64,000 nt of DNA from a bacterium endosymbiont of Escarpia laminata. GTDB taxonomy: Bacteria; Pseudomonadota; Gammaproteobacteria; Chromatiales; Chromatiaceae. The stretch lies in NCBI GenBank assembly GCA_003660235.1, contig QGON01000064.1:1-64000 (forward strand). Direction: 5' to 3'. This document shows, piece by piece, positions 794-9,301 of this stretch. Within the stretch, counting starts at the first letter, position 1; the number at the start of each line of letters is the position of its first letter. The translations under genes and the position numbers were made by a program. The notes beneath the pieces were generated by a model. The model made no database searches, was not told where the DNA came from, and saw nothing but the letters and a program-made list of their open reading frames with translations.

Positions 794-2068
794 TCAGCCT
801 CCTGTGAAATACGCACCGTTGACAGCCATATGTACCAGGATACTGGCAATATAACCGGCGGCAATTGCCGGTGTCCATTTGAGATGGCCGAAGAAGGTGT
901 ATTTCCCTCGTGCCTGGCCCATTAGGGCAACGCCCGCTGCAGAGCCGATGGAGAGCAATGATCCACCGACACCGGCGGTCAATGTCACCAGCAACCACTG
1001 TCCCGTCGACAAATCAGGATTCATGGTAAGTACTGCAAACATCACGGGGATGTTGTCGACGATGGCTGAGAGGACACCAATAGCCACATTGGCGTTGGTG
1101 GCACCCCAACCCGCATACATCATCTCGGATGCCATGCTCAGATAGCCGATGAAACCCAGTCCACCCACGCAGAGCACCACACCGTAGAAGAAGAGCAGGG
1201 TATCCCATTCAGCCTTGGCCACCGGAGAAAATACATCGAAGGCGCCCGGCGTACCCATCTGACCATCGTGTTCTGCATCGTCTGGCTGTCCGTGGTGATC
1301 CCGGTAGGCGGTCTTCTTCAGGAAGTAGCCAAACAGTTGCAGATAACCCAACCCGGTCAACATGCCGATTACCGGCGGCATGTGCAAAAAGTTGTGGAAA
1401 GAGACTGCGGTGGCAATGGTGGCGAGAAACAGCGCGATGATACGTCGTGCTCCCCGCTGCATCGGCACTTGTTCCCCTGATGCATCCGGCTTAACGTCGG
1501 GTACGGCGAAATGCATGATTGCTGCCGGAACAATAAAGTTGACCGCCGCAGGGATAAACAGGGCGAAAAAGGTCCAGAATTCCACGAAACCTTTCTGCCA
1601 GACCATCAATGTGGTGATGTCGCCAAAAGGAGAGAATGCTCCGCCTGCATTGGCGCCGACTACGATATTGATACATGCCAGGGTAACGAAGCGGCTGTTG
1701 TCTCCTCCCACCGCCAGCACGACAGCGCACATCAGCAGCGCCGTAGTCAGGTTATCCGCCACAGGCGAGATGAAAAACGCCAGGGTACCGGTGATCCAGA
1801 AAAGGGCGCGAAAACCGAATCCGCTACGAACCAGCCAGGCGCGCAAGGCATCGAATATCCGCCGCTCCTCCATGGCGTTGATATAGGTCATCGCCACCAA
1901 CAGGAACAGCATAAGCTCCGCATACTCCAACAGATTATGCCGTACTGCATGCTCCGCTGCTTCGTTCAGGCCGTGGCTGGCATAGACCCAGGCAATAACA
2001 CCCCAGATAAGACCCGCAGCGATAATAACCGGCTTGGATTTGCGCAGATGGGTGAACTCCTCTGCCAT
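794..2068 (-). pseudogene. nhaD: NhaD-type Na+/H+ antiporter, main body (N-terminus separated by insertion)
   Basis: This 424-codon frame is the body of an NhaD sodium/proton antiporter (ion transporter superfamily), an inner-membrane protein that exports Na+ for H+. It starts with MAEEFTHLRKSKPVI, which in intact NhaD is internal: it normally follows a signal-like segment and a first membrane helix ending in LAYxxV. That N-terminal part is found 0.4 kb upstream at 2513-2677, separated by inserted DNA. Conserved NhaD segments SPVADNLTTAL and GANAGGAFSPFGDITTLMVW are present, and no further break is seen. The ATG at 2068 could still give a protein lacking the first helix, but I see no strong ribosome binding site there. 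Downstream of an SLC13-family gene in the same operon. Confidence 0.8.
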
Positions 2069-2519
2069 AACGAATAAGGTTAGATTGTGTGAGCGAAGCG
2101 AACCACAATCTGAACCGTTTGTTGGACGAGCCCGGGTATACGAAATTGGGGGAATAATCCGGCGGTACTAGGGGTAGCCAGAAAGGCACTTGACAACGCG
2201 GAATAATGTGCTATTTAGAAAACATCTTTTTCCCGGTCGTTTCCATCGGAAAAACAAAGGGTTACGTTTTTCCAGATAAAAGCCACAAACATAGGATAAC
2301 GCGGTGCGGTCGATTAGACAAGAAGCCTGCGCCCGTCGGAGGCAACCGGGCTGGCGCAGGAGGCGAAATGGATCTGGCCGAGCTTCGTTGTTGGCGTATT
2401 ACTCGGATGCGGCCGTTCTTGGGCCATGCTGATAAACGCCTCGCCGCTCGTTTGGGAGCTACAGCGGTTAACCGCAGGCGTGGGACTTTTCTCCGCGATA
2501 GCGGCTTCGTCCAACAAAC
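2069..2519. mobile_element. MITE-like insertion in nhaD
   Basis: DNA between the two nhaD fragments. A 13-bp inverted repeat, GTTTGTTGGACGA at 2117-2129 and its complement at 2507-2519, bounds about 400 bp. A separate palindrome at 2078-2116 abuts the left end. No transposase gene lies inside; short frames there resemble no family I know. Exact ends are uncertain because the 2507-2519 repeat overlaps bases that could encode the expected nhaD residues Leu-Phe-Val. A short non-autonomous element is the simplest reading; a composite insertion or rearrangement is possible. Confidence 0.6.
2078..2116. repeat. REP-like palindrome
   Basis: Arms GGTTAGATTGTG (2078-2089) and CACAATCTGAACC (2104-2116) pair except for one bulged base, with a short GC-rich loop containing GCGAAGCG. 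It sits directly against the terminal repeat of the nhaD insertion, so it may be part of the same event or an earlier one. Confidence 0.6.
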
Positions 2520-2693: not shown

Positions 2694-4682
2694 CTAGAAG
2701 ACCAGATTCATCATGACCATCATGACGACCAGAAACAGCACCGTCATAATGCCGCCTGCTTTCATGAAGTCCGCCACCCGGTAGCCTGCCGGCCCCATGA
2801 TCAAGGCATTGACCTGATGGGTGGGAATAAGGAATGAGTTGGAGGTGGCAATCGCCACGGTCAGTGCGAATACAGCCGGATTGGCCCCCGCACCGATGGC
2901 GATATTAACCGCCAGCGGTACCAGCAGCACTGTGGCACCGACGTTGGACATGACGAGAGTGAAGAAGGTGGCCAGTACGGCAACTGCACCCTGAATCACC
3001 CAGATCGGCATATCGCCAACCACGAAAAGCACCTGTTCGGCGATCCACTTTGCAGTGCCGGTGGTCTCTACAGCCAGACCCAGAGGGATCAGTGAGGCGA
3101 GCAGGAAAACTGTTTTCCAGCTGACAGCATCGTAGGCCTCCTCGATCTTCAGTACGCCTGATAACACCATGCCGATGGCGCCTGTCATCAACGCCACAGA
3201 GAGACGGATATCGGTGAACAGCACCATGGAGAGTGCAATGGCGAAGAAGAGGGTGGCGGGTAGAATCTTGTGTGGACGCATCTCCTCTTCACGGGGATAT
3301 TCGGTGGTCACTACCACGAAATCGCGATCTTTTTCGATCCTTTCCAGTGCTTTCCAGGCAGTGTGAACCACCAGGGTGTCACCAGGACGGAGGCATTTAT
3401 TGCGGATATCATCTCCCTCACGCAATGTTTCACCATCACGATGCAACCCGATCAAGGCCAGACCATAGGTCTTGCGCATCCACACATCACGCGCACTCTT
3501 GCCTATCAAGCTTGAACCCAGTGGGATGACCACTTCGGCAATACCCGCCTTGGCGGCGGCAAGCGAATCCGCAAAGGTTCGCAGCTCACTACGCCTTTTC
3601 AGACTGTACTTCTCCACAAAGTGTTCAAGGTCATGCGGGTCAGCCACTACACCCAACACCATGCCTGCCTGGAGATCAGTATCGCGAGCCAAGGTGCCGG
3701 GGCCAACCCGACTCGCTTCGCCTGAGCGCTTGCTGGCGATAACCCGCACCCGGTAGCTGCCTTCAACCTCATCGAGTTTTTTACCGATCAGGTCGCTGCC
3801 GTCGGTGATGACCAGTTCCTTTATAGCGAAATCCACGCCGTAGACATCATGGAAATAGACCATGGGATCAGCACCCACGGTGCTGCTTTCACTCTTCGTC
3901 TTGGGCAATACAAAACGGCCTGCCAATACGAAATAGAGGATGCCTGTGACGATCAATGCCGCGCCCACCGGGGTCACCGAGAAGAGTCCCCAGGTATCCA
4001 TCTGTTGTGCAGCGGGCAACGCCTGATTGGAGGTAAGGATTAGATCATTCAGCAGTATCAGTGGACTGGAACCGACCATGGTCATGGTGCCGCCGAGAAT
4101 CGCGGTAAAACCCATCGGCATCAGCAAGCGCGACATGGGCAGTCCTGAGCGGGCCGAGATCCGCGAGACGACTGGGAGGAAAAGGGCCGCAGCCCCGACG
4201 TTCTGCATAAAGGAGGAGATAAATCCCACGGTGGCTGAGATGATCGGAATGATCCGCCCCTCTGTGGTGCCACCAACCTTCAGAATAAAGGCCGCCACCT
4301 TGCTCATGATGCCCGTTTTATCCAGGCCGGCACCGATGATCATGACCGCGATGATGGAGATTACCGCGTTGGAAGAGAAACCGTCGAACAGGTGCTTATT
4401 ATCCACCAGCCCCTGCTCCAACCCCATGAAAGGGGCCAGGAGCGTGGTCAAGCCCAACAGCACCATGACGGTTGCGGCCGCAACGTCGACACCCACGACC
4501 TCAAACGCAAACAGGTAGATGGTCAACATGAGGATAGCACTGACCCAGGCGATCTCTATCGAAGGCACAACACTGGCCAGAAACAGGGCAAGTGCGGCAA
4601 ACACTGCCGCTGCGATCATCTGTTTTGGAGTGACTATTCCCGGTTTTGCGATAGTCTGTTCTTCATCCGCAAGTTTGTTCAT
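2694..4682 (-). CDS. SLC13-family (DASS) permease with two RCK_C domains
   Basis: This 662-residue inner-membrane protein has the layout of bacterial SLC13/CitT-like permeases that carry regulatory domains: an N-terminal membrane half (about residues 20-260, with SSFMQNVGAAALFLPV and GSSPLILLNDLI), two TrkA-C (RCK_C) domains (about 285-365 and 385-465), and a C-terminal membrane half (470-660, with MSNVGATVLLVPLA and TSNSFLIPTHQVNALI). Family members move anions such as sulfate, phosphate or dicarboxylates, usually with Na+. The substrate cannot be read from sequence. It heads an operon with the Na+/H+ antiporter gene nhaD, which would regenerate a Na+ gradient. The start has a purine-rich site (GAAGAGAG) upstream. 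A consensus sigma-54 promoter lies 250 bp upstream. Confidence 0.88.
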   Translation of the reverse strand: MNKLADEEQTIAKPGIVTPKQMIAAAVFAALALFLASVVPSIEIAWVSAILMLTIYLFAFEVVGVDVAAATVMVLLGLTTLLAPFMGLEQGLVDNKHLFDGFSSNAVISIIAVMIIGAGLDKTGIMSKVAAFILKVGGTTEGRIIPIISATVGFISSFMQNVGAAALFLPVVSRISARSGLPMSRLLMPMGFTAILGGTMTMVGSSPLILLNDLILTSNQALPAAQQMDTWGLFSVTPVGAALIVTGILYFVLAGRFVLPKTKSESSTVGADPMVYFHDVYGVDFAIKELVITDGSDLIGKKLDEVEGSYRVRVIASKRSGEASRVGPGTLARDTDLQAGMVLGVVADPHDLEHFVEKYSLKRRSELRTFADSLAAAKAGIAEVVIPLGSSLIGKSARDVWMRKTYGLALIGLHRDGETLREGDDIRNKCLRPGDTLVVHTAWKALERIEKDRDFVVVTTEYPREEEMRPHKILPATLFFAIALSMVLFTDIRLSVALMTGAIGMVLSGVLKIEEAYDAVSWKTVFLLASLIPLGLAVETTGTAKWIAEQVLFVVGDMPIWVIQGAVAVLATFFTLVMSNVGATVLLVPLAVNIAIGAGANPAVFALTVAIATSNSFLIPTHQVNALIMGPAGYRVADFMKAGGIMTVLFLVVMMVMMNLVF

Positions 4683-4829
4683 TTTTTCTCTCTTCGATAA
4701 TGTTAAATTCTTTGCGAGTGCAACAATGCACCCAGGTTTTCACACTTCGCACCAGTGTCTGCGGCAGCGAGCAGGCAATAATCCACTCCACCTGACTGGA
4801 GACGTCATACCTATCCTGAGCAATGAGTC

Positions 4830-4895
4830 TTAAGCTGCATCCTGATTAGCCAGACCGAATAAAATTTTCTTCAAATCATCACTGAGTATTTTCAT
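4830..4895 (-). CDS. Possible 21-residue leader peptide or gene remnant
   Basis: Within the transcribed leader ahead of the SLC13 gene, an ATG at 4895 opens a frame of 21 codons, MKILSDDLKKILFGLANQDA plus Ala, ending TAA. The composition is protein-like and the GLAxQD segment weakly resembles GLAQQD in the small protein at 585-791. It could be a leader peptide or the start of a decayed gene, since the remaining 150 bp to the transporter has no convincing frame. No good ribosome binding site is visible. Confidence 0.25.
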   Translation of the reverse strand: MKILSDDLKKILFGLANQDAA

Positions 4896-4930
4896 TATCT
4901 TTAATTCCGAATATTAATTACCTCTGATAT

Positions 4931-4946
4931 TGCAATCCCCATGCCA
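4931..4946 (-). promoter_or_regulatory. Sigma-54 (-24/-12) promoter for the SLC13-nhaD operon
   Basis: Read on the minus strand, the 16 bases are TGGCATGGGGATTGCA, preceded by C. This matches the RpoN consensus (TGGCAC-N5-TTGCA) at all but one core position, with the invariant GG and GC dinucleotides separated by 10 bases. It points to the SLC13 gene, predicting a start near 4920 and a leader of about 240 nt. The adjacent NtrC-type activator gene supports the call. Confidence 0.75.
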
Positions 4947-5002
4947 GCTGTGGCCGCTTGTAACCTATTGTTTTTATTGGCCGTTAGAATGACAATTCCA
5001 AA

Positions 5003-5023
5003 GCAATCATTGCATAGTGCAAT
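5003..5023. promoter_or_regulatory. Candidate activator site (palindrome) between sigma-54 promoters
   Basis: Two overlapping palindromes, GCAATCATTGC (5003-5013) and ATTGCATAGTGCAAT (5009-5023), lie about 60-70 bp from each of the two opposed sigma-54 promoters. A dyad in this place is what a shared upstream activating sequence for an NtrC-type regulator would look like. The assignment to the neighbouring regulator is inference. Confidence 0.45.
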
Positions 5024-5078
5024 AGCTGGAAGAATTCTTTTCTGGAAAACAGCAGCAAATGCACTGATGGCATAAGTC

Positions 5079-5094
5079 TGGTAAAATTGTTGCA
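5079..5094 (+). promoter_or_regulatory. Sigma-54 type promoter for the kinase-regulator genes
   Basis: TGGTAAAATTGTTGCA has the GG and GC pairs 10 bases apart and a perfect TTGCA -12 element; the -24 element is weaker (TGGTA instead of TGGCA). Predicted start near 5105, about 17 nt before the ATG at 5122. It would make the two-component genes self-activating. Confidence 0.5.
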
Positions 5095-5121
5095 ATATGT
5101 AACAGATGGTTGCGTTTTGTT

Positions 5122-6609
5122 ATGGCTACTCTCTTCGATCTAACCAGCTTGGGGGGCAAAATCACCAGCGCGTACAACACGCTGGTCGTTAGCACCGCAG
5201 TGCTTGGCATCATTGCCTTTTCAGACTTGTTGTTTCTGGAGCGACAAGTGACAGAGGGCGAGGTGGTTTCTGATTTGAAAGATGCGGTTCTGGAAATGCG
5301 CCGCGAGGAAAAGAATCTGTTTCTCTACGCAGACACTGACGCCTTCTCCAGCGCTGACGAGCAGGCCGCATTATCCCTGAGAATTCTGCAAGAGCACCAA
5401 ACCGCCCTTGGCACAATTTTGCGTGAATCCGACCCAATGACTATGGTGAAGACACTAAAGACCTATCGCAGTAGGCTGGGGCAATGGAAAGTCACAGCGA
5501 TCAGCGATCGGAAACCCATACAGGACGAGATAAGAACTCTCGGGCATCAGGCCTATCTCTCCATTGAATCACTCTCCAGCCAGGAGCGCCGGATGCTTGA
5601 GACTGCGGTTCGGGAGTCTCAGTGGTTTTTATTGATCTCCCTCTTCATGATTGGTCTTTCGATCTATATCGTCGGGCGCCAATTAAAACGCGTGGCAGTC
5701 ACCCCACTCAAGCAACTGGAATCACGCTTGAAGCCAATCGCTGAGGGGCGTTTCAACCATTTAGACACACCTTCAAGTGATCGCGAATTTATCACTTTTA
5801 CCAATGCCTTCAATCGGATGCTGAAAGAGCTGGAGGTCCGCCAAAAGCGTATGTTGCAATCGGAAAAACTGGCATCATTGGGCATCCTTGCATCCGGCGT
5901 GGCGCATGAGCTGAACAATCCACTGTCCAATATCTCCTCATCCTGCCAGCTGCTTATGGAAGAACTTACAGAGGCAGACCCGGAACAACTGAATATCTGG
6001 CTGAAACAGATTGACAGCGAAACCGAGCGTGGACGAAACATCGTGCGAACACTGCTTGATTTCGGCAGCCAGCGTGTCTTCCAGAAGCAGCGGCTCAAGC
6101 TGCTGGATCTGATTAATGAGACCCAGATCATCATCGGCAAGACACTGCAGCAATATTCGGCAAAGCTTTCGATCAATGTGCCCGATGACCTTGCTCTTGA
6201 GGTAGACAAGCAGCGCATTCAACAGCTGTTTATCAATCTTATTCAGAATGCCCTGCACGCAGGCGGTCAAGGCGTCCACCTGCGGATCAGCGCCATCTCT
6301 TGCGAACGAAGTGTTTCGATGATCCCGGATGGTGCCGAGGTGGCTGGAAACCTCAACTGCATCACCGATTACAATGGCAGGTTCATCGAGATTCTGGTTG
6401 CCGATAACGGTCCCGGTATCCCGGCCGAGCAACTTTCCAACGTTTTTGACCCGTTCTTCACTACTAGCGAACCGGGACACGGTGTTGGACTCGGTCTGTT
6501 TATTGTTCAGGAAATCGTGCGCGAACATGATGGCTGTCTTGCCATCGCCTCACGTCAGGGAAAGGGGACTCAGGTGATTGTGCTGCTTCCCGACAAAGCA
6601 CCCGTATGA
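5122..6609 (+). CDS. Sensor histidine kinase, NtrB/ZraS-like
   Basis: A 495-residue membrane kinase that should phosphorylate the response regulator encoded 12 bp downstream. Order: membrane helix (about 15-40), periplasmic sensing region (about 45-165) rich in charged helices, second membrane helix (about 168-185), HAMP linker, dimerisation domain with [10 protein letters not shown] (phospho-acceptor His262), and an HATPase_c domain with N box [11 protein letters not shown]1 DNGPGIP, F box FFTT and G2 GVGLGLF. The ATG at 5122 is preferred over an in-frame TTG at 5110, which lies almost on the predicted transcription start. The stimulus is unknown; the periplasmic domain resembles helical four-helix-bundle sensors. 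Confidence 0.9.
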
Positions 6610-6621
6610 CCGGATCGAATC

Positions 6622-8019
6622 ATGACTGAATCTTCATCGAGTGCCGGGCACATTCTGATCGTCGATGATGAGCCAACAGCGGTCAACAATCTGGCCCATG
6701 TGTGCCGCAAGCAAGGCCATGAAGTCACCACGCGAACAACTGGCATGGGGGCAATCGAGGCACTGGAAAACCACCGTTTCGATGTCATCCTTACCGACTT
6801 GAGAATGGAACGGGTCGACGGCATGGATATACTTCGCAAGGCCAAAGCGCTGAATCCGGAAACTGCGGTCATTCTGATCACAGGTTATGCCACACTCGAT
6901 TCCGCAGTGGCAGCGATGAAAGCCGGGGCGTTTCACTACATTGCCAAACCTTTTCGCCTGGATGAGGTGCGCGAGGTCATACGAAACGCACTGGAGATGG
7001 TTAATCTGAAACGGGAGAATCGACAGCTGAAGGGGCAGCTGACAAACCGCCGTAAGGGACCCTCCATTATCACTCAGGACGCCATTATGCAGCGTCTGCT
7101 GGAGATGGCGCAGCAGATAGCGCCCACCGACACGAACGTACTCATTACCGGAGAGAGTGGAACAGGCAAAGAACTGCTTGCCCGCTTCATCCACGACCAC
7201 AGCCATCGAAGAGACAATATTTTTCAGGCGGTCAATTGCGGCGCCCTGCAAGAGGATCTTCTGGCCAATGAACTTTTCGGTCATGAGAAGGGGGCCTATA
7301 CAGGCGCAACCGAAGCAAGAGAGGGTTTGATCGAGGCAACGAACGGAGGCACGTTGTTACTGGATGAGATTGCGGAGATGTCACTGGGCATGCAGGTCAA
7401 GCTGTTGCGGGTCATACAGGAGAGGGAGGTTCAGCGTCTGGGATCGACTCAGGCCACGGCAGTGGATATCCGCTTGATTGCCGCAACTCACCGCGATCTG
7501 CGTACGGAAGTGGCTGCAGGCCGTTTCCGCCAGGATCTCTATTACCGTCTTGATGTTGTTGATCTGCATCTTCCTCCATTGGCTCAGCGGCGTGATGATA
7601 TACCGCTGCTGGCATTCTATTTTCTGCGCAAGCATGCGATGCGTATGGAGCGCAGTGTGAATGATATCGTTCCTGCAGCGATGGCTATCCTGCTTGAGTA
7701 TGACTATCCAGGAAATATCCGCGAGCTTGAAAACATCATTGAGCGTGGTGTGGCGCTGGCCCAGGAAGGACAACTGACCACGGAGGACCTGCCTGCCACC
7801 CTTACCGAGCATGCCGTGCATGTGGTTCACGAGGAGGTGGTACGCCTGCCCACGCTGGCAGAACGGGAGGTTGACTATATTCGCTATGTATTAAAACAGA
7901 GTGGAAAGAATCGCACTCGGGCGGCGAAAGTCCTTGGTATCGATCGCGTCTCTTTATGGCGAAAGTTAAAAAAGTACGGCATGGAAGAGGAACGGCAGAG
8001 CGATGTAAACGAATCTTGA
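6622..8019 (+). CDS. Sigma-54-dependent response regulator, NtrC family
   Basis: 465 residues with three domains: receiver (about 10-125, phospho-acceptor Asp59 in TDLRM, Lys109 in AKPF), AAA+ sigma-54 activation domain (about 150-385, Walker A GESGTGKE at 177-184, Walker B GGTLLLDEI), and a C-terminal Fis-type helix-turn-helix (GKNRTRAAKVLGIDRVSLWR). The sigma-54 contact loop reads GAYTGA rather than GAFTGA, a conservative change seen in other activators. It is co-transcribed with the kinase upstream. Two sigma-54 promoters in the divergent gap 1.5 kb upstream are its natural targets, controlling its own operon and the SLC13-nhaD operon. Confidence 0.93.
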   Translation: MTESSSSAGHILIVDDEPTAVNNLAHVCRKQGHEVTTRTTGMGAIEALENHRFDVILTDLRMERVDGMDILRKAKALNPETAVILITGYATLDSAVAAMKAGAFHYIAKPFRLDEVREVIRNALEMVNLKRENRQLKGQLTNRRKGPSIITQDAIMQRLLEMAQQIAPTDTNVLITGESGTGKELLARFIHDHSHRRDNIFQAVNCGALQEDLLANELFGHEKGAYTGATEAREGLIEATNGGTLLLDEIAEMSLGMQVKLLRVIQEREVQRLGSTQATAVDIRLIAATHRDLRTEVAAGRFRQDLYYRLDVVDLHLPPLAQRRDDIPLLAFYFLRKHAMRMERSVNDIVPAAMAILLEYDYPGNIRELENIIERGVALAQEGQLTTEDLPATLTEHAVHVVHEEVVRLPTLAEREVDYIRYVLKQSGKNRTRAAKVLGIDRVSLWRKLKKYGMEEERQSDVNES

Positions 8020-8155
8020 GGCAATGATCTCCGATATAAAAACGGATTCCGATTTTGGTTGTGAGTATTCAACCCCGTGATTGTTAATAACCTTAGCTGC
8101 AGCGGGAGTGTGAGTTTCACGACAATGATGATGATTATTTTAATGGGGTATTAAC

Positions 8156-9301
8156 ATGTACGGAACCACCGGCTTAATTTCAAGCCTTTTGGGCGCCTAT
8201 CAAATGTCAGAGGTGTCGATGCGTTATAGCCGATTCATGCCTCGCTTTTACAATTTGGCAAAATCACTGGGATTCGAGCGTGGAAAGATCATGCCATCCC
8301 GGGCCTTCTGCTCTGATGAAAGCCAGGGGTATCCGATCATATTGATTGCAAAGCATTTCGGCTCCTTTCCATTTAATCACGGCCTGGTAGGTGGCATTGT
8401 TGCTACCGACAGGCATGCCCCTCATGCACATCACGGCAAAGATTTGGTTATTATTCAAGCCAGTCATGTGGGTTATGACCCTGAAAACGGAAGATTTGGG
8501 GTTTATCGCAGACTACAGACAGAAAAGACGAGCGAGACGTCCAACTGCGGAAAGATCTGTGGCGCATTGGATTGGTATCTGCGTGAATATGCGTTCGCAC
8601 GGGACAATATTTTTCTCTACCAGGAAAACGGTAAAAACAAGGTCATTGTCGACAACCTGCTGTTACATGCAGAACGTAACGAAGGCCTGTTGCTCAAGTT
8701 AGATAGAATCGTGAAAGTGGACGCCCAAGGCAATCCAATACCGGAAATATCAAAAAGTACCGCAAAGGTTTTTTCCGCATCACCGGCTCTACTTGATTAT
8801 CTGGAAGACTATGAATGGAAGCAGGATCGCGCTGAACCTATCGGCCGCCGCCTGCATCCTGACCTTTTCTTCTATAAACGTGAAATCAGCCATCATAGTG
8901 AGGGACGGGATCATCTGGAGCAAAACCTTATCGATGTAATGCCCTATGTTGTGACATCGCAATGGCCGGCTCTCACGGCCGCCCAGGCAAACACCCAGGT
9001 AGAGTTTGATCGCGCCTTTAGAACCATCCTTCAGGAACCCGCATACAGCAATAAAAAGATCTTGTTCATCTCGGGACTGAATGTGGACATCTCACCACAG
9101 GAAGGACAGGTGTTCCCGCTTACAAAGTTCATTCCGTGGGCTGCTTATGTTCAGGACGAGCATGGAAACCACCAAACCTGGGAACAGATGGAACTCTATG
9201 AGCAACTGCAGGCGCAGTCACCAGAGAACCCGGATCAGATTGATCTGGAGACGGCAATCGAAATCATGGAGAAGGAAAAAGAGATTCGGCTGCCATTCTA
9301 A
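8156..9301 (+). CDS. LCIB/LCIC-like (limiting-CO2-inducible) putative carbonic anhydrase
   Basis: 381 residues, cytoplasmic, no signal peptide. The first 145 residues carry a pattern I recognise from the algal LCIB/LCIC family, which has beta-carbonic-anhydrase-like folds with a Cys-His-Cys zinc site: FCSDE (Cys52, Asp54), a glycine-rich stretch HGLVGGIVATDRHAPHAHHG, the HVGYD His104, GRFGVYRR, and NCGKICGA (Cys131, Cys135). The algal proteins show CRDE, HIAFG, GVVYRRG and ACGA at corresponding places. The remaining 235 residues are unfamiliar. If correct, it hydrates CO2 or dehydrates bicarbonate, in keeping with autotrophy. It lies 136 bp after the sigma-54 activator, with no sigma-54 promoter in that gap, so co-transcription is possible. 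Ribosome binding site is weak (GGGGT). Downstream is a ssb terminator. Confidence 0.65.
   Translation: MYGTTGLISSLLGAYQMSEVSMRYSRFMPRFYNLAKSLGFERGKIMPSRAFCSDESQGYPIILIAKHFGSFPFNHGLVGGIVATDRHAPHAHHGKDLVIIQASHVGYDPENGRFGVYRRLQTEKTSETSNCGKICGALDWYLREYAFARDNIFLYQENGKNKVIVDNLLLHAERNEGLLLKLDRIVKVDAQGNPIPEISKSTAKVFSASPALLDYLEDYEWKQDRAEPIGRRLHPDLFFYKREISHHSEGRDHLEQNLIDVMPYVVTSQWPALTAAQANTQVEFDRAFRTILQEPAYSNKKILFISGLNVDISPQEGQVFPLTKFIPWAAYVQDEHGNHQTWEQMELYEQLQAQSPENPDQIDLETAIEIMEKEKEIRLPF

Follow-up and report, generated by a model that had tools for sequence, protein, structure and literature searches.

An LCIB-like gene beside transporter and sigma-54 regulatory genes in a tubeworm endosymbiont: a putative carbonic anhydrase and a separable SLC13-RCK/NhaD unit

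The LCIB/LCIC proteins are carbonic anhydrases (CAs) of the theta/beta type of algae and diatoms, and the SLC13/DASS permeases with TrkA_C domains include the algal SLT/SAC1-like sulfate transporters. Here we describe an LCIB-like gene in a stretch of 64,000 nucleotides (hereafter the window; contig QGON01000064.1 of assembly GCA_003660235.1) from an endosymbiont of the tubeworm Escarpia laminata, where it lies close to the genes for an SLC13-type permease with RCK_C domains (SLC13-RCK), a NhaD Na+/H+ antiporter, and a sensor kinase with its sigma-54-activating regulator. It corresponds to contig 69 in a genome of 4.25 Mb in 71 contigs (G000; G-numbers denote genomes and L-numbers stretches or loci). 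Among bacterial systems, the closest are the DAB/DAC complexes, formed by DabA (PF10070) and DabB and treated in the accessible part of PMC13144422, and bicarbonate uptake by BicA/SulP and SbtA, treated in the accessible part of a 2024 survey of the carbon toolkit (PMC10880623). That part of the survey names theta-class CA among prokaryotic genes, so that bacterial members of the family are not entirely new; LCIB and SLC13 are absent from its text. In the accessible portions of the literature searched, a search that left most subscription journals outside, we found no description of the LCIB-like gene in chemolithoautotrophic bacteria and no account of its neighbourhoods or of a trade-off with beta-CA. 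The CAs discussed in the portions seen of two Riftia papers are host enzymes (PMC7787665, PMC6918071).

The preliminary description of the window had proposed a single sigma-54-controlled module for inorganic carbon and sodium, in which an LCIB-like CA works with the permease and the antiporter. This interpretation is, as a whole, partly supported. The reading that we favour, at a probability of about 0.56, is that an LCIB-type CA replaces beta-CA in bacteria that mostly fix CO2 through RuBisCO, and that the SLC13-RCK/NhaD genes and their sigma-54 pair would form a separable unit.

The LCIB-like protein

The protein of 381 residues encoded at 8156..9301 (+ strand) matches the Pfam family LCIB_C_CA (PF18599) at 29.9 bits (cut-off 25) and an E value of 4e-7, as the preliminary description had anticipated in calling it LCIB/LCIC-like. 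This is its sole Pfam match at E <= 1e-3; the canonical beta-CA family Pro_CA (PF00484) gave no match, nor did any NCBIfam model. Of 39 aligned members, a set to which the window's protein belongs, 31 match PF18599 at E <= 1e-3. With the diatom protein PtLCIB4 (PDB 5b5y), a phmmer comparison over residues 25-155 is weak (E 0.29), and it brings into register, in the same order, the motifs C-S-D-E, S-H-V-G and C-G; an hhalign comparison with one PtLCIB4 segment aligns them identically (E 0.0012, probability 19). In the window's protein the motif residues are C52-S-D-E55, H104 and C131-G132, and Cys52, His104 and Cys131 align with their PtLCIB4 counterparts. In an alignment of 92 sequences (300-480 residues, more than 300 bits, the window's copy included and some genomes represented twice), C52, D54, H104, C131 and G132 are invariant and E55 is found in 91. 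We take C52, H104 and C131, with D54 as the acidic residue near the first Cys, to be the candidate metal ligands, on the basis of the known features of the family and of the order of the motifs rather than of a structure.

At position 53, 90 of the 92 sequences have Ser and two have Ala (38 and six, respectively, in a smaller set of 44), and PtLCIB4 likewise has Ser between the Cys and the Asp. The idea that this Ser marks an inactive enzyme was dropped, as the accessible passage of a review calls PtLCIB3 and PtLCIB4 constitutively active; a structure of the PtLCIB4 mutant S47R exists.

Three observations count against the assignment to the LCIB family. The Pfam match is partial, covering residues 25-140, just the first third of the protein, and positions 5-121 of the 223 in the profile; the hhalign probability is low; and no LCIB chain was recovered from the PDB by profile search at E <= 1, so that the link to PtLCIB4 rests on the weak single-sequence matches, hhalign and Pfam. 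Beyond residue 140 the protein is conserved among members and matches no Pfam family. It differs from the LCIB/LCIC proteins of algae and diatoms in this conserved C-terminal part, in its length, in being bacterial, in lying by transporter genes, and in being a putative enzyme. The best-supported reading is that it belongs to a divergent bacterial LCIB-type subfamily and is a putative CA serving carbon uptake.

Genomes and neighbourhoods of the LCIB-like gene

The LCIB-like gene was found in 28 of 146 genomes from the family and in 25 of 369 sampled across the class (G000 is counted in both). Named loci come from a scan of a species-genome collection, as the best 80 of 261 related stretches; among these 80, the closest named matches are endosymbionts of Lamellibrachia and Escarpia tubeworms (90-97% identity), and most are titled gammaproteobacteria, several symbionts among them. 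Some records titled Desulfobacteraceae, Deltaproteobacteria and Desulfospira also contain the gene. In the cultured holder Cocleimonas flava (L084), a stretch of 21 kb around it showed no SLC13-RCK. No relative was found in plasmid and phage collections.

That the protein may be a working CA is suggested mainly by the presence of RuBisCO, and the frequent absence of ordinary beta-CA, in the genomes that hold it. All 25 matches of the class were kept for these tests. Among the 25 holders, 20 have RuBisCO (RuBisCO-like matches are counted), as do 167 of the 344 other class genomes (p 0.003); in the set used for neighbourhoods (see below) it is present in 37 of 47 holders, and in 31 of the 33 of good quality. 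A strong beta-CA match (E below 1e-20) occurs in four of 25 holders against 220 of 344 non-holders (p 5e-6), and any beta-CA match in eight against 233 (p 7e-4). The difference persists among RuBisCO-positive genomes alone, both for strong matches (4/20 against 104/167, p 5e-4) and for any match (7/20 against 112/167, p 0.007). Alpha-CA is not depleted (5/25 holders, 78/344 non-holders). Shell genes of bacterial microcompartments (PF00936) were found in none of the 14 holder genomes, out of 47, that were tested, G000 included. CO2 fixation by the thiotrophic symbionts of tubeworms and clams is substantial, and no carboxysome-shell gene was seen in any of the six genomes tested from the window's genus.

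Other points weigh on the opposite side. The limit for a strong beta-CA match was chosen after the list had been inspected, and the p values treat genomes as independent of phylogeny. Five of the 25 class holders are without a RuBisCO match; three of these are 72-77% complete, an explanation that does not extend to G502 (100% complete) or to G407, whose LCIB match is weak (31% identity). The genome of the window itself has one weak beta-CA match (E 1.5e-5) and one alpha-CA, and the gene occurs in Desulfobacteraceae and Desulfospira.

Neighbourhoods were counted in 47 of 52 distinct LCIB-matching genomes, from 31 genera (G013, G116, G133, G322 and G407, with fragments or weak matches, were dropped). 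The counts within 10 kb used 94 of 144 rows for SulP, 37 of 38 for SLC13 and 28 of 28 for DabA, the left-out rows, as read, all lying farther than this from LCIB genes; chance expectations are simple Poisson values for a 3.3-Mb genome, in which genomes are treated as unrelated and kinship is ignored. Within this distance, SulP occurs in 11 genomes of nine genera (about 0.64 expected, or about 1.0 with all 144 SulP rows), SLC13-RCK in eight genomes of five genera (about 0.25 expected) and DabA in three genomes of three genera (about 0.19 expected); two of the counted neighbours, DabA in G047 (at a contig end) and SulP in G340, are partial. At least one of the three is found in 18 of the 47 genomes and 14 of the 31 genera. 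An ammonium transporter, used as control, is within 10 kb in a single genome (G029, about 7.6 kb; read from coordinates). The grouping of the LCIB-like gene with SLC13-RCK is thus more than chance, and what recurs of the conserved gene set expected in relatives is a neighbourhood with transporters linked to carbon or Na+; the full five-gene set does not recur as widely (see below). In the 81 loci formed by the best 80 stretches and the window, in which the LCIB open reading frame (ORF) was called in 79 and many contigs are short, local profiles found SulP in 17, SLC13 in 12, NhaD in 10, MrpD-type proteins in nine, DabB in six and DabA in five.

The likeness to the DAB/DAC systems is most direct in several symbionts, in which the LCIB-like gene ends DAB operons. 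The order AntipM-DabA-DabB-AntipM-AntipM-LCIB, on one strand with LCIB last, is found in L055 (the same as L167; Solemya velesiana symbiont), L057 (Ctena symbiont), L086 (Bathyaustriella symbiont) and L166, and its end is visible in L056; the DabA of L055 scores 752 bits. In L101 and L106 the LCIB-like gene adjoins DAB on the opposite strand. In contrast to those systems, the LCIB-like protein is separate from DabA, and in the window's genome its gene has no DAB neighbour, DabA being found on contig C11. RuBisCO lies 2.5 kb from the LCIB-like gene in G024, 8.6 kb in G433 and 12.2 kb in G486, by coordinates.

From these data we propose that the protein is a cytoplasmic zinc CA of the LCIB type, which would stand in for the ordinary beta-CA where RuBisCO mostly fixes CO2 and, in the window's genus, would act without carboxysome-shell genes. 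It would interconvert HCO3- and CO2 delivered by the importer of each lineage, be it DAB, SulP or SLC13-RCK, with Na+/H+ antiporters helping. If this holds, an LCIB-type enzyme beside several unrelated importers would constitute a carbon-supply route, linking the LCIB system of algae with a counterpart in bacteria.

The SLC13-RCK/NhaD operon and its sigma-54 sites

The other genes of the preliminary description are real: ORFs lie where it had placed them, and profiles confirm the permease, the kinase and the sigma-54 activator, as they do the LCIB-like protein. The permease (662 residues; 2694..4682, - strand) has two TrkA_C (RCK_C) stretches and scores 256 bits with CitMHS and 54 bits with TrkA_C, a layout, CitMHS plus two TrkA_C, like that of the SLC13/DASS permeases with TrkA_C. 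It passes the Pfam cut-offs for CitMHS and Na_sulph_symp, the latter weakly (36 bits against 27), but is below the cut-off of the NCBIfam DASS model (98.3 bits against 198.6), a difference from the SLC13/DASS permeases. NhaD, encoded by an ORF of 424 residues (794..2068, - strand), scores 654 bits with the NCBIfam equivalog NhaD_1, against a cut-off of 80. The antiporter of the proposed module is therefore genuine, but it lies outside the span of 2694-9301 to which the module had been assigned. On the + strand are the sensor histidine kinase (499 residues; 5110..6609; HisKA and HATPase_c), with a TTG start and a possible ATG 12 bases later, and an NtrC-type sigma-54-activating response regulator (465 residues; 6622..8019; Response_reg, Sigma54_activat and the Fis-type helix-turn-helix HTH_8). 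A HAMP domain in the kinase copy of L050 is below its cut-off.

An arrangement with nhaD and SLC13 reading one way, and kinase, regulator and LCIB the other, is found in the window, in L050/L171 (one genome), in L159 (same genus) and in L160 (another family); the complete set of five genes was found in two genera only. Regulator and LCIB are separated by 136 bases in the window, by 76 in L160, by 271 in L050 and by 1.6 kb in L159. NhaD adjoins SLC13 in five of the 18 stretches in which SLC13 was called. In only three of these 18, L175 and L186 (G010 and G228) and L187 (G011), does the kinase-regulator pair flank SLC13, and there the stretch is without LCIB, which is elsewhere or absent. The pair is thus associated more closely with SLC13 than with LCIB, although in L125, from Desulfospira joergensenii and outside the gammaproteobacteria, an LCIB-like gene is found beside a related regulator (43% identity) and kinase (31% identity), with no SLC13-RCK in the stretch.

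The same division is seen in the candidate promoters. A -24/-12 (sigma-54) site, TGGCATGGGGATTGCA (4931..4946, - strand), faces the SLC13 operon, and a site facing SLC13 is also found in six of the seven other loci compared (L050, L159, L160, L186, L175, L187 and L062); thus, such a site, with at most one mismatch in the interval between SLC13 and the kinase, is present in seven of eight loci, against 0.03-0.15 expected per locus from single-base shuffles, the exception being L187. The spacer of the L050 site is that of the window and those of the other five differ; three of the seven loci are from one genus. The whole window contains 31 -24/-12 sites, no more than the 36 expected by chance, so that the SLC13-facing sites are credible only through their position and recurrence. 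A second, weaker -24/-12-like site, with two mismatches, faces the kinase (5079..5094, + strand) and would leave a very short leader; it is found in the window, L050 and L159, and not in L160, L186, L175, L187 or L062. Before the LCIB-like gene (8020-8155) there is no -24/-12 match with up to two mismatches, and a scan for sigma-70 promoters found none; transcription of LCIB by read-through from the kinase promoter is possible. The sigma-54 control proposed for the module as a whole is thus supported by candidate sites for the permease operon, and not supported for LCIB.

The SLC13-RCK/NhaD operon would probably serve Na+-driven anion uptake, most likely of bicarbonate, with NhaD pumping Na+ back out and the operon's own sigma-54 pair, in response to a signal that the kinase would sense, acting as its switch. 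The operon resembles BicA/SulP and SbtA uptake in that an anion permease is paired with a Na+/H+ antiporter, in G061 and G000 close to genes of carbon fixation; it differs in resting on SLC13-RCK, a predicted anion permease. In G061, SLC13, SulP and NhaD are near RuBisCO; on contig 16 of G000 (L174, 18000-37000), SulP, a second NhaD, phosphoribulokinase, a GGDEF/CZB protein, RuBisCO and CbbQ are clustered, and the pairing of anion permease and NhaD on this contig lends mild support to bicarbonate over sulfate. The unit may well, though not certainly, serve the same purpose as LCIB.

The strongest alternative, somewhat less probable than the reading we favour but a serious one, is that SLC13-RCK, NhaD and the sigma-54 pair serve the transport of sulfate, or of some other sulfur-containing anion, in a sulfur-oxidising bacterium and are unconnected with LCIB, the two being neighbours through shared genome turnover. 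SLC13 families include sulfate carriers, and the weak match of the permease to the Na+:sulfate symporter profile points the same way, as do the stretches in which the pair flanks SLC13 alone. SulP families include sulfate transporters as well, according to the accessible part of PMC10880623. The pairing of LCIB with the permease, which the preliminary description had inferred from position, is not mirrored at the level of genomes: SLC13-RCK (E <= 1e-60) is found in 31 of 48 genomes with LCIB and in 15 of 19 family members without it, and this lack of enrichment adds weight to the sulfate alternative. All of these count against the reading we favour, as does the presence of the pair beside SLC13 in no more than three of the 18 stretches. 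Against the sulfate alternative stand the frequency of SLC13 within 10 kb of LCIB, the placement of these transporters near RuBisCO in G061 and G000, and the Desulfospira locus, in which related regulatory genes accompany LCIB.

Erosion of the set and other alternatives

The five-gene set is eroding in the window's genome. Between the sigma-54 site and SLC13, relatives carry a gene for a protein of 173-188 residues that matches no Pfam family (L050 6051-6605, L159 8753-9307, L160 12685-13206 and L186 10834-11400; L062 1494-2069 is a counterpart by size and place only). The SLC13-facing site lies 36-60 bases before this gene in L050, L159, L160 and L186, followed by SLC13 and nhaD. In the window a remnant of 21 codons followed by a stop (4830..4895, - strand) is what is left of a gene that encodes 184 residues in L050. 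Between SLC13 and nhaD, an insertion of about 440 bp (2075..2513), absent from L050 and with imperfect 18-nucleotide inverted repeats (2117-2134 and 2502-2519), separates the 5' end of nhaD, the ORF of which is accordingly cut off relative to that of L050 (479 residues). SLC13, kinase, regulator and LCIB are open, with ratios of nonsynonymous to synonymous substitution rates (dN/dS) of 0.035-0.11 where computable. SLC13 was not found at E <= 1e-60 in three of the six genus members (G138, G020 and G099, which by coordinates are L049, L051 and L052); in these, only pieces of the regulator remain, ahead of an LCIB gene that is intact and evolves under purifying selection (dN/dS 0.035-0.09). All six members have thus retained LCIB.

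The set might accordingly be a decaying relic here, in which the SLC13 operon has lost its function and LCIB alone is of consequence. This is compatible with the other readings and would account for the truncated gene, the damaged nhaD and the members of the genus in which regulator pieces alone remain before LCIB; we consider it less likely than not, since SLC13, kinase and regulator are open and constrained (dN/dS 0.04-0.11 together, 0.04-0.07 for SLC13), the remaining NhaD ORF covers the whole NCBIfam profile, and the sigma-54 site before the SLC13 operon is retained.

An extension of the reading we favour is more speculative still. The LCIB-like protein might be a general soluble partner that docks to DAB, SulP or SLC13-RCK/NhaD and converts imported carbon on the spot, as a bacterial counterpart of the algal LCIB route; it would then define carboxysome-free CO2-concentrating systems in many thiotrophic symbionts. 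Finally, that the protein is non-catalytic, a CO2/HCO3- sensor or scaffold partner of transporters, would fit the change of adjoining transporter (DAB, SulP or SLC13) between lineages and the conserved part after residue 140, but is improbable given the invariance of the metal-ligand candidates and of the Asp near the first Cys and the tendency of holder genomes to be without ordinary beta-CA.

Second copies of the LCIB-like gene were seen twice. In L113, a gene on the - strand (7363-8469) is 31% identical to the first, lies about 1.5 kb from it and may represent a paralogue class; in G120, a single-contig genome of the window's genus, a second copy is present in several pieces (C1, 1739845-1740768).

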